A DNA stretch of 64,000 nt, from contig JAOZSR010000009.1 of NCBI GenBank assembly GCA_029939575.1, forward strand, positions 1 through 64,000, given 5' to 3'. Shown here one piece after another: positions 1,876 to 53,200 of the stretch; positions within the stretch are counted from its first letter, which is position 1; every line of letters starts with the position of its first letter. Origin of the DNA: Fidelibacterota bacterium. GTDB lineage: Bacteria > Fidelibacterota > UBA2242 > JAOZSR01. A program made the position numbers and the translations under genes. The notes beneath the pieces were generated by a model, which was not told the origin of the DNA, searched no databases, and saw nothing but the letters and a program-made list of their open reading frames with translations.

Positions 1876-4800
1876 CTATTTAATAAGAACGATAGATTTT
1901 AACATTTGTTCTTCTTTACCAGCATCTTTTACAACCAAATGGAGAATGTAGCGTCCATTTCTGGCCATCATTCCATTATCTGTTTTTCCATCCCAATACA
2001 ATGAGCCGGTTTCACCAACTCCATAATCCCCTTTAAGCATGGCTTTGTTTTTCGCCAGGGTTCGTACTAACGTTCCCCTCATATTATATATTTTGGCTGA
2101 AACATTAGGATATCTACTTTTATTAGATGATATTTTGAAACTTATCTGCAATCCCATATTATTTCCTACCATATCATAGGGAGTAAATGGATTTGGCTTT
2201 AATTGCAAATTATAAATACCCAATGGCAAGGACGGAGCAACAACTCCATATTCAGCCCAGGATGGAATAGCAGTTAATGATAAGTTTGACTCGATTGTTG
2301 CTTTTGCCAAATTATTTTGTGCTTCTACTACTACCCATTTTAAATCATCACTATTCCAATATGCAATATTACCACCATCTGTATCAACTGAAAAATTTAT
2401 TCCCGGCATAGTTTGAAAAACAGATTCTGCTTTATTGCTTTTCACATCAAAAACTTTACTTTCAAGTCCGTTTTCAATACCTGTTAATTTCATGGCTGCA
2501 ATTTTGAATAAGGGTTTTACATAGATTTTTGCTGAACCTGTTATTAGCATATTTTCAGGAAGAATGAGAGAACATTCATAGCCACTATTTAATACAATTT
2601 CTCCCATATCACTTGTTATATTTTGATAAATTGAAAATTCTTTTTCTGACACTATGGTAGTATCATAATTTTTATCAGTCGCAGAAATGGATAAATTAAT
2701 TTTACCGATAAATGTTGAATCAGGAACAAATCTCAGTCCACCCTTTTCAACAGAAAAAACACCTATACTGGAATCTACCTCTTCCCATGTAATGGGCAAG
2801 GTCATAATAAATCCACTGTCACTTACTGCCTGAATTCCAAAGAAAGCTGTTTCACGATTTGAAAATTCTTCAGGGCCTGAAATATTAATTTTAGAAAGAT
2901 GCATATCCCTGATCTGCAAACTTGTTTTTAACTCAATTAACACTCCGTCTAACATAATATTTGCACGAATCTCTCCGGATAAGTCAGCACCTATTTCCTT
3001 GGGAGATGAATAGATTATTTGGAGCTTATTATTGCTACTTGTTAAAACACCCAGTGATGTATCAGACAAACTCCAATCTACAAATCCTCTTTCTATGATA
3101 TCATTATTTAGGGAATTTCCTATATCATCTTTTAAATCTATCTCAAAAACTGAAGAATCACGAAATGCAAAAATTGATTCGGTTGGAGAAATTGTGGAAT
3201 ATTTATCAGTCAAAATTCCTTCCGAAGTTATCTGCCAGGTAAATTTAGTATTTTCATTACTGTATGCCATATTAAGATCTTGTGAATTTGATTTAAAATA
3301 AAAATCCGTACTACCTGATTTTTTCTGAGCCGGAATATAGGCCATTACATATGAACCATCACCAGACTCAATCATTTCTATTGTCTGTGGATTTCCGTCC
3401 ACACTATTATAATAAAGATGAATTGCATCGTTGTATTCTGTGGCTTTATATAATTTTATTGGAATTGAATCTTTAGCCGCCCTTGGTTGAATTTGGGTCA
3501 TATCAAATTGTAACGGAAGTTGTGCATCAATATTAACATGTCTAATATCATCAAACATGATATTCATGGATTTTGCTTCGATAAATGTTCCAATGCTTCC
3601 GGAATTCTTAGTGATTTTGATCATAATATTTTTATTGGAATGAAATATTGAGTCTGTTGAAACAGTTCCCATTTCGTCAGTAAACAGAGTCAGATTATGA
3701 TCAGTGGAAATTATTTTTATTTTTGCTTCCGATATAGGTTTTGTCCCATCTTCGGTCAGATTCAAGGAAAAACTCGATAGAAAATACTCAAAAGTATAAT
3801 CATAAATAAAATTTTCTGCAGACATTAATTCAAATTCATCGGACTGATGGAAAAAATCTTCATTATCATATTTAGCATCGATAGATAAAGTATAATTTCC
3901 GGGATCAATATTATTTAATTGATAGATTCCATTTTCATCAACAGATGCAGAATCTATTACACTATTATTTGCCATAAGATAAATTGTAGATTCATCCATT
4001 TTTTGATCTTCATTATCATGGATCAAAATTGATCCACTAATATTTGCCAGAGCCGGATCATATAAAAAATAAACATTTTCATTCTCATAATCCTCAGCAA
4101 TATTCAAACTTATGTTATTTTGATAATCAAAGGTTATCGGATTTCCATCAACAAAATATGTGGCAGAAATTGTCAGATCATATTCCGATTGCTCAAGATC
4201 ATTAAAAACAAAATTCCTAGTACCATCAGAAATTACTTGCTGTTGCTCATAACCGATAGAGTTACTCTTCAGTTTTACTGTTGCATAATTAACAGAAACT
4301 GTATCGGGCTCGCTACCGGATTTATCAATAATCTGAACCTTTCCGGAAATTGAAGACGGGTCTGGAGTCAGAAGAAAATTTTTCTCTACACTGTTAATCT
4401 GAAAACTTAGTTCCCCATTAGATTTTACGGTATCGTAATTTGTTTTAAAAGCTGATATTAAAAACATTCCCTGTTTCCCGGTTAGAAGAGAATACAGACC
4501 TTTTTCATCTGATAGAGTTGAGACAGATGTATCAGTACTAACGGCAACGACCTCTACACCTTCCAGAGCCTGACTCCTATTATCCTGAATTTTCCCAAAT
4601 ATCGTTAACTCTTTGGGTACCATGACAAAATCAACTGTTGGAGGATCAGATTGACCATTACTAAGAGTCACACTCTGGTCAGATATTTCATTATAACCAA
4701 TATGATAAACTGAAATTACATAATCTCCATCATTCAGACCCGAAAACAGAAAATTACCGTCCGGATTAGTATATATTGTATCTAATATAGTTTTCAGATT

Positions 4801-7800
4801 ATCCTGTAACAAAACTTCAACATTCGAAATTCCCTTTTCTGTTTTTGAATTTGTCACAACCCCTGTTATTGAATTATTAATAAATTTCAAAGTATAATCA
4901 GGCAAAATAATGGTTTCTCCAACTCCCAAATCTTTAATCTGTATATTTTCATTAACATTAAAACCTTCCAGAAATGGTTCAATTCGATAAGTACCACTAT
5001 TTAACCCGGAGACCTGATAATTCCCGTTTACATCAGTAATATCATTAACAATAGCACCGGTATTAATATTTTCAACCGTTATATTAACACCAGCTTTTCC
5101 ATTACCATTATAAGTAACTGCACCTTTAATTGTAGAAGCACTTACAAGATTCAAATTTTGATAGATTGATCTGCCTGTCGATACTTCGACAACCTGATTA
5201 ATACTGACCAGACTGGTATCTGCATTAATAGCCCAGAGTTCAAAAAGCCCAACAATACCATCAATCATATAATCACCAAAATCATCGGTATAAACCGTAT
5301 TAATATAACCTTCCAGAGATTTTGCATTTACCGGAACATTTGCCATTTCCTGACTTTCATGAAATACCGAACCCAGGATGGCATTTGGAATCATCTGTAA
5401 TTCTATATTGATTTCTTTCTTATCATCGGAATATTGAAATGTTTCATTATAATCTGCGAATCCGGTTTTCCTGCAAGTTATCTCATATTCTTCTCCATAT
5501 ACAAGATCGACAAATTGAAATGTTCCAGCTGAACCGGTTGTATCAGTAAACAGAATAGTATTTGCCTGTTTAATATCAACAATTGAATTCTTAATACTAA
5601 TTGATTCTTCGTTATATAATGCCGATATTGCTCCACTCAGGGCATTGGGAAGAGAAGTTAGATTGATTGTAACACTTTCATTACTAAAATCAGTCAGCCC
5701 TATTTCAACAATATTATTATTTTCATAATAACCCGATCTGACAGCAGTAATTTTATAATTTCCTTCATATAAATAATCAAATACAAAATTACCCGATTCT
5801 GAGACAATATTTTCCAATATTTCATAAACCCCTTCAGAGTTTTCTTTTGCCAGCGTAATTTCTGTATTTAGTAGTAAATTATTATCAACATCTTTTATAG
5901 ATCCGTTTAATGAAGCTGTGTGAATATCAATTATCAAATTCGTTGTTTGATTTGAATTTTCAATGGTCAATTCCTCAATATCATTATCATATTCTTCCCC
6001 GTCAAGATTAGTGCTTACACTTGTTGTAGTATAAGGAATAACATTATCTGTAAAACTGAAACCACCACTTTCGTCAGTTTCAACAAATAAGGTTTGTTGG
6101 TCATTAATCAGGAAGACATTTTCACCGCTAATTGGTCTTTCGTCTGTATCCTTCAATGTTCCGGAAATTGTAACCGGAGCCGAATAATCAATCTCCACAT
6201 TTTGTTCTTTTACCTGCCTGGCGCTAATCGAAATGTTTAAAGTTTTTGTTAGATAAAGTTCTTTTATTATTTTTAATGTATAAGCACCACCTGTTAAATA
6301 TTTAAAGTTGAAACTTCCATCCGGATGTTGAGAGTTTTTTGTAAATGAATTTCCGGTACTGCTGTTAGTTAGAATTACAGTCGCATTAGTTATGGGGTCG
6401 CCTGTATTTGAATCAGTAATATTACCAAAAATTCTGGCATCATTTATTGTGATTTCAAATGTTCCACCGGAATTATTTTCATTATCTTCTATAGTTACCT
6501 CTTTCTCTACATTTATCCATCCTTGTTCTTCTTTGTTTGTAACAACATCATAAGTAGTGAATGGAGCCAATCCGGAAATAGTGAATTCTCCGGAAGAATT
6601 TGTCATTGCAACTCCTGAACTAATTTCTGATGATGCTGAAACAGGAACATTATTTAGTGCAGTACCTCCCTGATCTTTAACAATTCCATTTATTTTTCTA
6701 TTATTTGGAATCATGGATAATGTACCTACAGATTGATTTTCCTGTTGTAAATCTACTGCATCTCTTGCAACATCTGAATAACCTGTTTTTACAAGCGTTA
6801 TTGAGTATTCTCTTCCCGGATTAAGATTGTTGATACTAAATGAACCATCAGCATTACTAATAGAATTGCCTGAAAATCCATCTTCACTTAGAGCATAAAT
6901 ACTCACATCACTCAATCCAACATCTTCATTTGAACTGTTTGTATAGGAAATATTACCACTTATCCGGGCATTTGTCAGAGTCAATTCAAAATCCAACGAA
7001 GTCTCCTGTCCCGGACTAAGAGATGTTAATTGTGCATCAGAAAAATAATTTACTGCATTTGCAGACACAAGATAATCTACATTAGCCAAAAGTCCGGTAA
7101 AAGTTACATTCCCTGAATTATCAGTTAGCCCACTTACATTTTCACCTGTATTTTGGTTTTCAACTGTAATTGTGGCTTCAGAAAAATCCTGCCCGTTATT
7201 TTGAACATTTACTATCAAACTCGAAGTATATAATTGTATTGATGCATTATATTGAATAGAAACTCCGACCGGAATTACTTCGTTTGTAACATTACTGGGT
7301 TCGTAATTATCTTTTGTAATGGAAATAGAATAACTTCCTGGCAAAAGGTCGGTAATTGAATACTCTCCATTATTATCAGTTAGTATTGTTCCTCCACCAC
7401 CGGTTGAACGGGTTGCTGTTACCAAGGCTCCGGATAAACTATGATCCTGTTGGTCTGTCACCACACCATAAAGTGTTGAAAAATTTTCTTCCAGAATAAA
7501 ATCCAAAGTATCAGTTTGCCCTGGTACAATTTCAACTGACCGGACACTTTCATTATGCCCTAATAATTGGGCTGTAACATTATAATTTCCATGATTGATT
7601 CCAACAGAATATTTCCCGTTTAATCCTGTTTCAGTAGAAGTTGAATTTTCAGAATCATCCTGGTTTTCTATTGTAATATTTACTCCGGAAAGGATTTCAC
7701 CATTATCATTTACAACCAGGCCTCTCAATAAAGACGGCAGAGCAGACAGAGTAAAATTAACATCATAATTTACTCCAACATCTAATATTCCGGATGTTTC

Positions 7801-10632
7801 AGAAACTGAAGAATAACCATCTTTTGTTGCAGAAATATCATAATCCTGTCCAGGAATCACAATAACGGAAAATTGCCCGTTTGCACCAGACACAGTTGAA
7901 ATATTATTGGATGAATTTGATACATCTTCTATATAAATATTAGCAGCACGTAGTAAAGCGCCATCAGATTTGCGTATAATACCTGAAATCGTGGCTTCAT
8001 TTCGAATCATGGCAATATTTTGATTTGGAATTTGCTGACCGGCCTGAACCTGAATATCCAGCGAATCCATACAGAGAAAGTTATTTTTCTCAGCCCAGAT
8101 CAAGTAATTTCCCGGTAATAAATTAAGTTCGTAATTTCCACTTTGATCAGTAGGTATTGCAGTAATTGTTACAGTATTTCCCGAGGACAAAATTTTATAG
8201 CCTTTAACTGTTCCCCCTGAAATTCCGGCACCGGAACTGCTGACTTTTCCGGAGATTACACTTGCATTTGGAGCCATTGAAAAATCAATCTGCTCAACTG
8301 TCTGACCGGCTCCAATTGATACAGTTTTGATCTCTGTACTGGAATAACTTGTTTTGCTTACAGATACTTCATAAGTACCAGGTGTAACTGACAAACTAAA
8401 TTGTCCTGTACTATTTGAATAATCACTATTTTCACCACTTGAAACAAGAGCATCTGGTAAGCCGAATCCTCCACTTGTTACTGTTCCGGTGATGAAAGAT
8501 TCATTTGGAATCAGGACAAAATCAATCCCGTCCAGAGTTTCTCCTACACTGAGATTCAATTGATGAGTATTCTGAGATGAATAATTTTGTTTAAATGCTG
8601 AAAAAATATAATTACCTCCAGGTAAATCCAGAGAATAATTTCCATAATTATTAGTAGTCGTACTTATTGGGCTGCCGGTTGATGGAGTTGCTGTAATTGT
8701 AACATTGGCCAAAACAACAGAACTATTATTTGCATTTCCGGAAATAATGTTTGCCTGCGGATTTAGGACAATATTACTGAGAGTTATTAAAACAGGTGAA
8801 GCATTTGTGATTTCAATCTCCTGAGGAGGAGGAGAATAATATCCTGTCTTTTGTGCATAAAAACTCCAGTTACCAAACTCAAGTCCTGCAAATTCAAAAG
8901 AACCACTGGAATTGGATACTTTTTGGATTGTATTGCCTTGACATTCTGCAAATACATTAATGGCAGATAAAGGCACACCACCTGTATTTAAAACAACTCC
9001 GGTGACATTTTTCTCATTTTTTATCAGCTCAAGATTATCTAATTCCAGGTTAGCCCCACTATTGATCATTAATTCAATTTCATTTCCCTGGCTATAGGTC
9101 TCTTTTCTTGCTGAAAAAGTCCAATATCCCGGAGTAAGTGAAAGATTATAACTTCCCGAAGAGCTGGCAGCTTCACGCACTTCATCATCGGCATTGATAG
9201 CGGTTACAAATCCATTTTGTACAAGTTGCCCATCCTGATCAACAATCTGTCCATAGATTGAGCTTGGAGAATAGGATAAGATTATTGACATATTTCTTGT
9301 GGAATTAATTGTAATATCTGTAGTATCTTTTCTCGTTTCGTAATATTCTTTATCGGTTGTAATAATATATGTACCAACCGGCAACGTTTTACTTACCCTT
9401 CCATTTTCATCAACCAGCATCGGAGCATTATCGCTGGAACCATCAATAGGATCAATTTTAATTGAAGCGTATGGCAAAGCAACATTATTAATATTTTTGA
9501 CATGAAAATCAATGCTTCCGTCAGCAACTCTGTAAGAAAATTCAGACACGTTACTGATGGCACTATTACTATTAGCGTCAGATGCGATAACTTTCCATGT
9601 ATAATTAGCACTAACCAAAACAGGACCGGCAAAAAAATCAATAAAATTATTGGTTGTTGTCTGATCAAATACAGTATAATGGACTTCACTCCCATCTTCA
9701 AACCTTATTTCCGACACGAAAATCCGGTAAATCATGGCGTTTTCAACCTCACTCCATTCAAAAGTAATATATTCATCGCCATAGAAGAATGTAGTATCCT
9801 CCGCTGTCGATGAAATTGGAGAAGTAAGAATCGGTGCATCTAATGGATCTTCAACTTCATAAGTAAATTCAACCGGAGCAGTAACAACATCAGATGAATA
9901 AGGCATATCATTCCCATAATTATTGAGCACCATCCAATTATATTGAATACCTGGCACAAGCGGCGGTGCTTCAACATCTGATGCTCCGGAAGGATCAACA
10001 CTACCATAAACAATAGAATTTTCCGGTGTAATTGCCTGCCAGATTGCCTGGGCTCCGGTTACTATCATGTTGCCATCGTCATCTTCATCAATTACAAACG
10101 GATTATCTGATAATATGAGTTGATAATATGGAACACCCGGATTTGTTTCCCAAATAAATGTTGGAATTGGATTATCAATTGCTCCAATAGGAGAAGTCAT
10201 CACTACTCCTGATTCTGACTCTACAATTAATTTGAATTCCATGGAGACAAGATCGTCGGAATTGGCAACAACACAATAATAAACTCCAACACCTAATCCC
10301 AAATCCTGTGGTGTTTGGGCTATTGTACCAGTACCGGAAGTATTTGTATTTGTGTAGTTATCCAATATCAATCCACCGGGAGTTAAGGAATAATACAGGT
10401 TACAATTCAACTCGGCTGGTAACCAGCTAATTGTCAAAGTCTCATAACTCCTGAAAAATTCAAGCGGAATATCTGTTAGAATAATATTATTTTGAACATT
10501 ACGGGGATTAGTTATCACGTCGGCGTTTATCGAATGAGTTGAATTTAAATTGATTCCATTTGCAAATAATAAAGAAAACTGGAGCAATAGCAATATTATC
10601 AAATTATTAAAAAGTTTTTTATTATATCTCAT
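1876..10632 (-). CDS. Giant secreted protein with about 23 carboxypeptidase-regulatory-like/CNA-B-like modules and a C-terminal FlgD/T9SS-type sorting domain
   Basis: 2918 aa. Recurrent motif I-x-G-x-V...G..L..A.V......T...G.Y.L....G.Y.I....Y repeated by eye about 23 times. C-terminus NPFTPYDMVGNN...KIYNMRGTLVRTL...LYWDGKTDNGMMARNGRYILHLVVK is FlgD-Ig-like. Confidence 0.85.
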   Translation of the reverse strand: MRYNKKLFNNLIILLLLQFSLLFANGINLNSTHSINADVITNPRNVQNNIILTDIPLEFFRSYETLTISWLPAELNCNLYYSLTPGGLILDNYTNTNTSGTGTIAQTPQDLGLGVGVYYCVVANSDDLVSMEFKLIVESESGVVMTSPIGAIDNPIPTFIWETNPGVPYYQLILSDNPFVIDEDDDGNMIVTGAQAIWQAITPENSIVYGSVDPSGASDVEAPPLVPGIQYNWMVLNNYGNDMPYSSDVVTAPVEFTYEVEDPLDAPILTSPISSTAEDTTFFYGDEYITFEWSEVENAMIYRIFVSEIRFEDGSEVHYTVFDQTTTNNFIDFFAGPVLVSANYTWKVIASDANSNSAISNVSEFSYRVADGSIDFHVKNINNVALPYASIKIDPIDGSSDNAPMLVDENGRVSKTLPVGTYIITTDKEYYETRKDTTDITINSTRNMSIILSYSPSSIYGQIVDQDGQLVQNGFVTAINADDEVREAASSSGSYNLSLTPGYWTFSARKETYSQGNEIELMINSGANLELDNLELIKNEKNVTGVVLNTGGVPLSAINVFAECQGNTIQKVSNSSGSFEFAGLEFGNWSFYAQKTGYYSPPPQEIEITNASPVLITLSNIVLNPQANIISGNANNSSVVLANVTITATPSTGSPISTTTNNYGNYSLDLPGGNYIFSAFKQNYSSQNTHQLNLSVGETLDGIDFVLIPNESFITGTVTSGGFGLPDALVSSGENSDYSNSTGQFSLSVTPGTYEVSVSKTSYSSTEIKTVSIGAGQTVEQIDFSMAPNASVISGKVSSSGAGISGGTVKGYKILSSGNTVTITAIPTDQSGNYELNLLPGNYLIWAEKNNFLCMDSLDIQVQAGQQIPNQNIAMIRNEATISGIIRKSDGALLRAANIYIEDVSNSSNNISTVSGANGQFSVIVIPGQDYDISATKDGYSSVSETSGILDVGVNYDVNFTLSALPSLLRGLVVNDNGEILSGVNITIENQDDSENSTSTETGLNGKYSVGINHGNYNVTAQLLGHNESVRSVEIVPGQTDTLDFILEENFSTLYGVVTDQQDHSLSGALVTATRSTGGGGTILTDNNGEYSITDLLPGSYSISITKDNYEPSNVTNEVIPVGVSIQYNASIQLYTSSLIVNVQNNGQDFSEATITVENQNTGENVSGLTDNSGNVTFTGLLANVDYLVSANAVNYFSDAQLTSLSPGQETSLDFELTLTNARISGNISYTNSSNEDVGLSDVSIYALSEDGFSGNSISNADGSFSINNLNPGREYSITLVKTGYSDVARDAVDLQQENQSVGTLSMIPNNRKINGIVKDQGGTALNNVPVSASSEISSGVAMTNSSGEFTISGLAPFTTYDVVTNKEEQGWINVEKEVTIEDNENNSGGTFEITINDARIFGNITDSNTGDPITNATVILTNSSTGNSFTKNSQHPDGSFNFKYLTGGAYTLKIIKELYLTKTLNISISARQVKEQNVEIDYSAPVTISGTLKDTDERPISGENVFLINDQQTLFVETDESGGFSFTDNVIPYTTTSVSTNLDGEEYDNDIEELTIENSNQTTNLIIDIHTASLNGSIKDVDNNLLLNTEITLAKENSEGVYEILENIVSESGNFVFDYLYEGNYKITAVRSGYYENNNIVEIGLTDFSNESVTINLTSLPNALSGAISALYNEESISIKNSIVDIKQANTILFTDTTGSAGTFQFVDLVYGEEYEITCRKTGFADYNETFQYSDDKKEINIELQMIPNAILGSVFHESQEMANVPVNAKSLEGYINTVYTDDFGDYMIDGIVGLFELWAINADTSLVSINQVVEVSTGRSIYQNLNLVSASTIKGAVTYNGNGKAGVNITVENINTGAIVNDITDVNGNYQVSGLNSGTYRIEPFLEGFNVNENIQIKDLGVGETIILPDYTLKFINNSITGVVTNSKTEKGISNVEVLLQDNLKTILDTIYTNPDGNFLFSGLNDGDYVISVYHIGYNEISDQSVTLSNGQSDPPTVDFVMVPKELTIFGKIQDNRSQALEGVEVVAVSTDTSVSTLSDEKGLYSLLTGKQGMFLISAFKTNYDTVKSNGELSFQINSVEKNFLLTPDPSSISGKVQIIDKSGSEPDTVSVNYATVKLKSNSIGYEQQQVISDGTRNFVFNDLEQSEYDLTISATYFVDGNPITFDYQNNISLNIAEDYENENVYFLYDPALANISGSILIHDNEDQKMDESTIYLMANNSVIDSASVDENGIYQLNNIDPGNYTLSIDAKYDNEDFFHQSDEFELMSAENFIYDYTFEYFLSSFSLNLTEDGTKPISEAKIKIISTDHNLTLFTDEMGTVSTDSIFHSNKNIMIKITKNSGSIGTFIEAKSMNIMFDDIRHVNIDAQLPLQFDMTQIQPRAAKDSIPIKLYKATEYNDAIHLYYNSVDGNPQTIEMIESGDGSYVMAYIPAQKKSGSTDFYFKSNSQDLNMAYSNENTKFTWQITSEGILTDKYSTISPTESIFAFRDSSVFEIDLKDDIGNSLNNDIIERGFVDWSLSDTSLGVLTSSNNKLQIIYSSPKEIGADLSGEIRANIMLDGVLIELKTSLQIRDMHLSKINISGPEEFSNRETAFFGIQAVSDSGFIMTLPITWEEVDSSIGVFSVEKGGLRFVPDSTFIGKINLSISATDKNYDTTIVSEKEFSIYQNITSDMGEIVLNSGYECSLILPENMLITGSAKIYVKPLFKIAAMKLTGIENGLESKVFDVKSNKAESVFQTMPGINFSVDTDGGNIAYWNSDDLKWVVVEAQNNLAKATIESNLSLTAIPSWAEYGVVAPSLPLGIYNLQLKPNPFTPYDMVGNNMGLQISFKISSNKSRYPNVSAKIYNMRGTLVRTLAKNKAMLKGDYGVGETGSLYWDGKTDNGMMARNGRYILHLVVKDAGKEEQMLKSIVLIK

Positions 10633-14948: not shown

Positions 14949-15455
14949 AATTACCTCCTATTGATATTTTAAAAAAGCCTTTTAATAAAAATACTTAAAA
15001 TATTTATTAAAATCAAATTTTGAGAATAACATGTTCTTTCCTATACTGTTATAATGAATTTTTATGTGGTAAATATGGAATGCATTATCTGTGATAATGC
15101 AAACAATACCAAAAAGTAGCGAATGTTTAGGAAGCATCAACACAGTTGGTGTACTCCAAAATACGCGCTAAATAGAATAGTAATAATTTATTTCTTTTCA
15201 TTATTTCAAAAGAAAACAAATTATGAATGATGAACAGTGAATCATTTTTAACGGCAGTTTATATTACTACAAATTCGGCAGTTTAAAATAACAGGTATTT
15301 TTAGTTAACATCAACATTTATAAAAAATATGTCAAACGAATAGAACAACTAATACATATTTATTCACAACGAGAAATTTATTTAAAATTACATTTAAAAG
15401 ATTAAGGGATAGAATAAGGTAGATAGTACTTGCATTTTTGCAATTATCAAAAAAA

Positions 15456-15473
15456 GGCAGAATTAATTCTGCC
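15456..15473 (-). terminator. Rho-independent terminator of the thioredoxin-TPR gene
   Basis: Perfect palindrome GGCAGAATTAATTCTGCC flanked by A6 and T4 tracts. Confidence 0.75.
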
Positions 15474-15502
15474 CTTTTAAATAAATTAATAAGAATTATT
15501 TT

Positions 15503-16543
15503 TTATCCCTTTTCGCTTTTAAATTTTTTAATATTCTTTAAATAATATTTGCTGTCAGGAAGTATTTCCAATGCTTTTTCCATTGCATTAATTGCTAATT
15601 CCATATTACCATTTTCATAATATAACCAGGCCAATGTATCCCAGATACCATCTGCTTTTGGATCTATTTCAACAGCTTTTTTTGTAAGTTTTATAGATTC
15701 TTCATATTTATCTACTATTTTATTTTCATAAACATACCAACCATACCCATTCATCAAATCTGTAGATTCAGGAGACAATTCCAATGTTTTTTTATAAGTT
15801 TCCAAAACTTTGCTCTTTTTTCCATTAGAAGAATAAAATCGAATTAAATTATCATAAGCTTTCAATTGAAATTCTTTAGAAGGATTAGAATCCATAAACC
15901 TATTCATTTTTTCCAAATTATCTTCATGATACATTGCATAAGTCGCACTTGAAAACAAGCAATCTTCTCTATATCCTTTTATATCTTCAGGATCAAGTTG
16001 CAGAGTTTTAATAATATATTTTTGGGCAAGTTCCTGCTCATAACGACCAAGGTATTTTTGGGCGAGTTTGTATGTCAGATCCACATTAGATGAATCAGAC
16101 TGCCATTTTGCCAATATTGAAGTAATTGTATTCTTTCCTTCAACAAAATCCAAGATTGTTTTAAAAAATTTGTCCGCATCATTATCAAATCCAATAATAC
16201 GATCAATTTCGTTGCCTTCAGAGTTGAATAGAATTACTGTTGGATATCCGGGAACATTGAATTTTTTTCTTAACTCAGATTCATTACCTTTTTTTGAATC
16301 TAATTTAACATTGATAAAATTTGATTTCATGAATCTTGCCATTTCTTTGTTTTGAAAGACCAACTGGTCTAATTTGGCACAGGGGCCTCAAGTAGGGGAA
16401 TAAAAATCAAGAAACAGCATTTTTCTCTGTTCTCCGGCTAATTGAATACCTTGCTCAAAAGTCAGATTTCCAAAGATATCACCATCATCAGAACTACATG
16501 AAAATAATGCAATCAATGATAAAAATAAAATTAATTTTTTCAT
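15503..16543 (-). CDS. Predicted selenocysteine-containing thioredoxin-fold/TPR lipoprotein (in-frame UGA at 16388-16390 read as Sec)
   Basis: Manual translation from ATG at 16543: MKKLILFLSLIALFSCSSDDGDIFGNLTFEQGIQLAGEQRKMLFLDFYSPT[UGA]GPCAKLDQLVFQNKEMARFMKSNFINVKLDSKKG..., continuing in frame into the ORF-track 286-aa ORF. UGA is codon 52 and occupies the first Cys of the thioredoxin CGPC motif. RBS aaaaggag upstream of ATG. Confidence 0.8.
16355..16377 (-). promoter_or_regulatory. Candidate bacterial SECIS element
   Basis: mRNA after UGA: GGCCCCUGUGCCAAAUUAGACC-AGUU-GGUCUUUCAA. Stem (A)AGACC/GGUCU(U) with 4-nt loop AGUU starting 23 nt after the UGA and a G among the first two loop bases. 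Confidence 0.6.
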
Positions 16544-16663
16544 CAAATCTCCTTTTAATTTGTTTTTCAGGTTTTTAATATTCTTATCAATACATTAATT
16601 ATGAGTTTTTACTTATTTTTTTTTATTTGTAAACCTATTATTTATTAAAAATTAAATACTACT

Positions 16664-52750: not shown

Positions 52751-53200
52751 ATGAAATTATTAAAAATAATAATTCTGTTAACAATTCTAAGTTTGTTGGC
52801 ATATGGCGGTGAGCACAAAGAATGGTATAGTTATGATGAAGGAATAGAATTAGCTAATGCTGAAGGCAAGCATATAATTATTGATTTTTATACTGACTGG
52901 TGTCATTGGTGTAAAGTTATGGACGAAAAAACATTTTCTGTTCCAGAAATCGAAACTTTTCTCTTTAAACATTTCGTTCCAATTAGAATAAATGCTGATA
53001 AAAATCCAAAAATAACAGCAACTTTTAAAATCACTGGTTATCCATCATTGGCTTTTTTAACTCCTAACAATGAAGTTCTGGGAGTAATTCCCGGATTTAT
53101 TCAACATGAACAATTTTTACAAATTTTAGAGTATATTCAAAAAGAATGTTACAAAAAAGATGTCACTCTTGAAAATTATATAATAAGCGGATGTAAATAA
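52751..53200 (+). CDS. Periplasmic thioredoxin-fold protein (CHWC active site)
   Basis: Signal peptide; IIIDFYTDWCHWCKVMDEKTFS; cis-Pro GYPSLAF. Confidence 0.9.
   Translation: MKLLKIIILLTILSLLAYGGEHKEWYSYDEGIELANAEGKHIIIDFYTDWCHWCKVMDEKTFSVPEIETFLFKHFVPIRINADKNPKITATFKITGYPSLAFLTPNNEVLGVIPGFIQHEQFLQILEYIQKECYKKDVTLENYIISGCK

Follow-up and report, generated by a model that had tools for sequence, protein, structure and literature searches.

A gene on the minus strand at 15503-16543 of the window (the whole analyzed stretch, i.e. the first 64,000 nucleotides of contig JAOZSR010000009.1, assembly GCA_029939575.1, from a Fidelibacterota bacterium) almost certainly encodes a selenoprotein with selenocysteine (Sec) at codon 52, as judged from sequence comparison. 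A preliminary description of this DNA had singled the gene out as a candidate, and this interpretation is supported by the presence of Sec machinery in the genome, by the exchange of TGA and Cys among homologs at the codon in question, and by a covarying SECIS-like hairpin downstream of it. The domain architecture read from the gene is that of a lipoprotein in which a thioredoxin-like domain is followed by TPRs (hereafter Trx-TPR).

Gene, reading frame and domain architecture

The frame comprises 346 residues, from ATG 16543 to a TAA stop, with a single in-frame TGA, and its conceptual product can be written as MKKLILFLSLIALFSC...DFYSPT-[TGA]-GPCAKLDQLV...GYPTVILF...TPR (Table 1). A list of open reading frames made with translation table 11 begins it at a TTG at 16363, within the thioredoxin fold. 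On re-reading, the frame was found to be open upstream of this position, via one TGA, to the ATG, as the preliminary description had it, and the ribosome-binding site and lipoprotein-like signal peptide that it had noted ahead of the TGA were both recovered (AGGAG 5 nt from the ATG, lipobox LFS-C16). The paralog at 52751-53200, whose active site had been set beside that of the Trx-TPR protein, likewise has the sequence claimed for it, DFYTDWCHWCKVMD. Since a strong terminator lies just past the gene and the neighboring same-strand gene upstream stops 120 nt away, the Trx-TPR gene is probably a single-gene unit.

Table 1. Features of the Trx-TPR gene and its immediate surroundings, in window coordinates.
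Feature	Position	Strand	Remarks
Trx-TPR lipoprotein gene, predicted to be Sec-containing	15503..16543	-	346 residues if the TGA is decoded as Sec
Codon 52, the in-frame TGA; predicted Sec nucleophile of the U-G-P-C motif	16388..16390	-	63 distinct members have TGA here, 18 have Cys
Cys codon 55, the resolving Cys in UxxC	16379..16381	-	Invariant in alignment A1
SECIS-like hairpin AGACC-AGUU-GGUCU, with a G second in the loop and 22 nt from UGA to loop	16357..16370	-	
Signal peptide with lipobox (LFS-C16)	16496..16543	-	Cys16 at least 90% conserved in A1
Shine-Dalgarno sequence AGGAG, 5 nt before ATG	16549..16553	-	Read directly
Thioredoxin-like domain, about residues 28-134; Thioredoxin_7, Thioredoxin_2; DsbD C-terminal-like	16142..16462	-	
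Pro101 (GYPT), cis-Pro position of the thioredoxin fold	16241..16243	-	Invariant
Helical TPR solenoid, about residues 140-345	15509..16126	-	
Intrinsic terminator hairpin with T run, just past the gene	15449..15474	-	-14.1 kcal/mol, z -4.0

Pfam identified Thioredoxin_7, Thioredoxin_2 and Thioredoxin, all above their cut-offs, followed by TPRs. The same order of a thioredoxin fold and then a helical solenoid appeared in an AlphaFold model of the aligned family (mean pLDDT 92.8). In alignment A1, Phe47, Leu58, Pro101 and the Cys that ends the motif do not vary. Taken from Pfam, alignment and model, the features of a thioredoxin superfamily oxidoreductase are thus present, i.e. the thioredoxin fold, UxxC and the cis-Pro, and the signal peptide with lipobox is kept in most of the family. 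By sequence profile, the closest solved relatives of the thioredoxin part are the putative disulphide isomerase 2kuc and the DsbD C-terminal domain.

TGA and Cys at codon 52 across the family

A first search among 60 relatives gave 17 homologs with TGA at the same codon (the window included) and five with Cys. In the full set, drawn from 245 genomes of the phylum and from public genomes, 81 distinct family members span the site, with TGA in 63 and Cys in 18. The claim that the TGA stands in place of the first active-site Cys is thereby borne out, homologs with Cys at this very position having been named beforehand as a check. Full-length TGA members have one TGA each, at the catalytic Cys position.

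The TGA form is present in 61 of the 245 genomes of the phylum. Outside it, the form was found in records of Zixibacteria, Calditrichota, Aminicenantes and Acidobacteria, while family members of any form occur in these four groups and in Ignavibacteriota and Bacteroidota; all of these non-phylum records are metagenome bins, single cases of which may be contamination. The genome of the window shares its order with genome G017, whose copy is identical to that of a Neomarinimicrobiota record over the compared region (L027 and L051). No relative of the Trx-TPR protein was found in phage records.

Selection appears to have acted on both sides of the codon, as dN/dS in a nine-member clade is low around the TGA (0.06 before it, 0.12 and 0.06 after it), in line with the earlier argument against decay. 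On the family tree, obtained by a short search, ten switches between Sec and Cys are needed, nine of which are forced by starred branches; judged from these sequences, the exchange has happened at least nine times.

A separate frame, G215:C33:1932-2288, was also observed. It is a stand-alone thioredoxin-like frame of 145 aa, without TPRs and with one in-frame TGA, and is possibly a second small selenoprotein.

The hairpin downstream of the TGA

According to a published model, a bacterial SECIS element has a loop of 3-9 nt on a stem of 4-16 bp, with a G in loop position 1-2, at 16-37 nt from the UGA, and its minimum free energy is -7.5 kcal/mol or lower (PMC13188914). With its AGUU loop, 5 bp stem and 22 nt from UGA to loop, the window hairpin fits this geometry. 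The preliminary description had placed it at a SECIS-typical spacing, which held, and it turned out to be both conserved and covarying. Under a rule modelled on PMC13188914, but allowing loops of 3-14 nt, a fitting hairpin was found in all 62 testable TGA members and in 10 of the 18 Cys members, the latter mostly by way of large, irregular loops. With the register fixed to any one of three, the stem is complete in 48 of 62 TGA members as against 2 of 18 Cys members (Fisher p 5e-7); the registers were picked after the sequences had been seen, and it is the synonymous null and the Cys control that carry weight.

In that null, stems reached 0.96 in the Sec members compared to 0.76 in their synonymous recodings, while there was no excess in the Cys members (0.67 compared to 0.64). 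The hairpin of the window is itself rare among synonymous recodings of its own peptide (p 0.007). Compensatory changes were seen in the clade of the window, where pair 22-33 is G-C or A-T, and in the large clade, where pair 19-25 is C-G or T-A and pair 18-26 is G-C, T-A or A-T. The Zixibacteria and Calditrichota members have the hairpin loop GGUC.

Folding energies, suggested earlier as a check on the TGA region, gave a divided answer. The hairpin alone (-5.9 kcal/mol) folds better than shuffled sequences (z -3.4), whereas the 56 nt around and after the TGA (-9.5 kcal/mol) do so no better as a whole (z 0.15). Relative to the -7.5 kcal/mol of the published model, the hairpin is thus too weak by itself and reaches the limit when its flanks are included. 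It was because the thermodynamics of this 56-nt region were uninformative that synonymous recodings and fixed-register pairing were used.

Two of the Cys members, L132 (in genome G081) and L143 (in G221), retain a complete CGGC-UGGAU-GCCG hairpin, and both pair with Sec members in the tree. Judged from their sequences, both seem to have gone from Sec to Cys only recently and to keep a fossil SECIS; selA was not detected in G221.

Given the existence of the Cys homologs and the fact that metagenome assemblies have errors, one could suppose that the gene is a pseudogene, or that a TGT or TGC has been misread as TGA and the true protein is a Cys thioredoxin or none at all. This is very improbable. 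Chance or sequencing error is excluded since 62 other distinct homologs, from independent genomes, have TGA at that codon, which with the window's own makes 63, distributed over many families and several phyla. Moreover, purifying selection is evident on both sides of the TGA, and the downstream hairpin goes with TGA rather than with Cys. It is just as improbable that the locus yields two products, i.e. a short lipopeptide that stops at the TGA and, from TTG 16363 on, a TPR protein whose thioredoxin domain is broken: although the mechanical frame list begins there, no ribosome-binding site precedes 16363, this position falls within the hairpin, and the Cys homologs are one continuous protein.

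Sec machinery and genetic code

A search for selA, selB, selD and tRNA-Sec, of which the lack would have spoken against a selenoprotein, found all of them in the genome of the window. The tRNA-Sec has the anticodon UCA, selA adjoins selB on contig C164, and selD is present. This selD (L017, G000 contig C92:26042-26962) shares one 742-aa frame with a NifS-like cysteine desulfurase, to the end of which it is fused, and the SelD active site is GLGCACK, i.e. the Cys and not the Sec form. None of the AhpC/TSA members of the genome has an internal stop.

Within the phylum, 61 genomes have the TGA form and selA was found in 55 of them (Fisher p 2e-4, with all 245 genomes considered), among these every one of the 28 with a completeness of at least 90%; the six in which it went undetected are 55-87% complete. 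Outside the phylum, selA was found in the genomes of all tested TGA records but one. The exception, L064, is an Acidobacteria MAG whose family member has both the TGA and a hairpin that fits.

TGA closes 10 of the 36 long, non-overlapping frames of the window and is therefore a normal stop here, as had been stated from a handful of genes. A genome-wide reassignment of UGA to a standard amino acid, for instance Trp or Gly, which the frame remaining open across the TGA might suggest, can hence be given a negligible probability, as the full-length TGA members have their one TGA at the catalytic Cys position and the genome has tRNA-Sec and SelB. With the conserved TGA/Cys column, the low dN/dS and the ordinary use of TGA as a stop elsewhere, error, decay and code reassignment are in practice excluded.

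Candidate function and genomic context

In the mechanism that we propose, SelB with Sec-tRNA(UCA) would recognize the hairpin downstream of the UGA, Sec would presumably be inserted at position 52 in the cell, and the ribosome would continue in frame to the end of the 346-residue lipoprotein, the mature form of which would be located in the cell envelope. The Sec52-x-x-Cys55 pair might then reduce or isomerize disulfides, with Sec attacking and Cys55 resolving, while the TPR domain may hold a client or partner. The pair would probably work in the reductase direction, and electrons could be supplied by the DsbD encoded in the genome.

In one lineage, an FKBP is situated immediately upstream, ending 1-29 nt from the Trx-TPR gene (17 loci), and these FKBPs mostly have a signal peptide or lipobox. 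In the same lineage, a cyclophilin starts 9-23 nt downstream of the gene at six loci. Such neighbors accompany both Sec and Cys members. Conservation of this PPIase operon does not extend to the lineage of the window, in which only a SurA/PpiD-like PPIase is present, three genes upstream. At three loci (L155, L157 and L158), the gene directly ahead of the Sec gene encodes a predicted exported protein that combines FKBP and cyclophilin parts, with both domains confirmed by Pfam for L155 only. Elsewhere in the window, at 1876-10632, a 2918-residue protein was seen that seems to be made of many carboxypeptidase-regulatory-like repeats with a FlgD-like C-terminal end, as judged by eye only. A role in defence was considered and dropped, as PADLOC gave merely a weak TPR match.

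The protein would most likely function in the envelope, fed by DsbD, as a disulfide reductase or a folding factor. An envelope reductase aiding the folding of exported proteins fits best, because of the relationship to 2kuc and DsbD, the genomic DsbD and the PPIase neighbors, and we rate the chances that the protein serves to fold or repair envelope proteins as about even. The main rival is that Sec is inserted but the protein acts as the dedicated reductant of one envelope partner, which the TPR domain would dock and which could be, e.g., a peroxidase or methionine sulfoxide reductase. Thioredoxin domains of this kind often serve a single partner, the genome encodes many AhpC/TSA-type proteins, and the PPIase operon is confined to one lineage; however, no conserved neighbor of the peroxidase or reductase kind adjoins the gene, and a dedicated reductant seems to us a real possibility of clearly less than even probability. 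The folding role also has a more specific version, to which we hold only tentatively and consider rather unlikely as it stands: a selenium-dependent envelope chaperedoxin, in which the TPR domain would bind unfolded or mis-oxidised exported proteins and Sec would reduce wrong disulfides, in cooperation with peptidyl-prolyl isomerases.

Comparison with known families

A 2026 inventory lists 119 prokaryotic selenoprotein families (PMC13188914), and the Trx-TPR protein is absent from its Table 1. Among these, the Sec thioredoxin and 'thiol:disulfide interchange protein' families (PF00085, PF13098, UxxC; PMC13188914) likewise have a thioredoxin fold in which Sec comes first in UxxC, and a bacterial SECIS right after the UGA. 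To these features the Trx-TPR family adds a lipobox-bearing export signal and, at the C-terminus, a TPR solenoid of ~200 residues.

The order of an N-terminal thioredoxin domain and C-terminal TPRs is shared with the CnoX/YbbN chaperedoxins (E. coli 3qou; PMC6282202). CnoX passes its clients to the cytoplasmic GroEL and DnaK; its motif is SxxC in E. coli, and in Caulobacter it works as a reductase (PMC6282202). CnoX is cytoplasmic, however, whereas the Trx-TPR protein is marked for export by its signal peptide and lipobox and has a predicted Sec. The Trx-TPR model gave no whole-chain superposition on 3qou (TM 0.24, rmsd 21.8), and membership of the YbbN family, which a Foldseek match had brought up, was rejected on account of this poor fit. 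The likeness to CnoX/YbbN is at most one of working principle.

The DsbD C-terminal domain and 2kuc, although closest among solved structures, are without Sec and without TPRs, and DsbD is an integral membrane protein, unlike the Trx-TPR lipoprotein. No NCBIfam model reaches its own cut-off on the Trx-TPR protein. The best match of the thioredoxin part is TsoB (NF045694), a rhodanese/DsbD fusion-like selenoprotein that shares the DsbD-like domain, but this match scores 53.5 bits against a cut-off of 805, and TsoB has another architecture and the Sec motif UxxxxU. A literature search, with most subscription papers and all preprints outside its scope, gave no paper dealing with selenoproteins of the phylum or with any selenoprotein that contains TPRs.

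UxxC thioredoxin-fold selenoproteins are hence a known kind. The Trx-TPR proteins, in turn, are predicted to form a new selenoprotein family with a new architecture, because the 119-family inventory has no TPR entry, no NCBIfam model reaches its cut-off and CnoX/YbbN does not match over the whole chain. The suggestion that a lipobox-Trx(Sec)-TPR architecture might be new is in agreement with the literature searched.

The finding thus adds to the current inventory a large selenoprotein family, of several bacterial phyla and apparently undescribed, which a standard ORF caller truncates. With Sec and Cys repeatedly exchanged, and a fossil SECIS in two Cys members, the question of when and why bacteria swap Sec for Cys becomes testable within one protein. 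The family also points to the use of selenium in the folding of envelope proteins. If the chaperedoxin reading were true, the Trx-TPR protein would, to our knowledge, be the first dedicated folding factor of the bacterial envelope with such an architecture to rely on selenocysteine.
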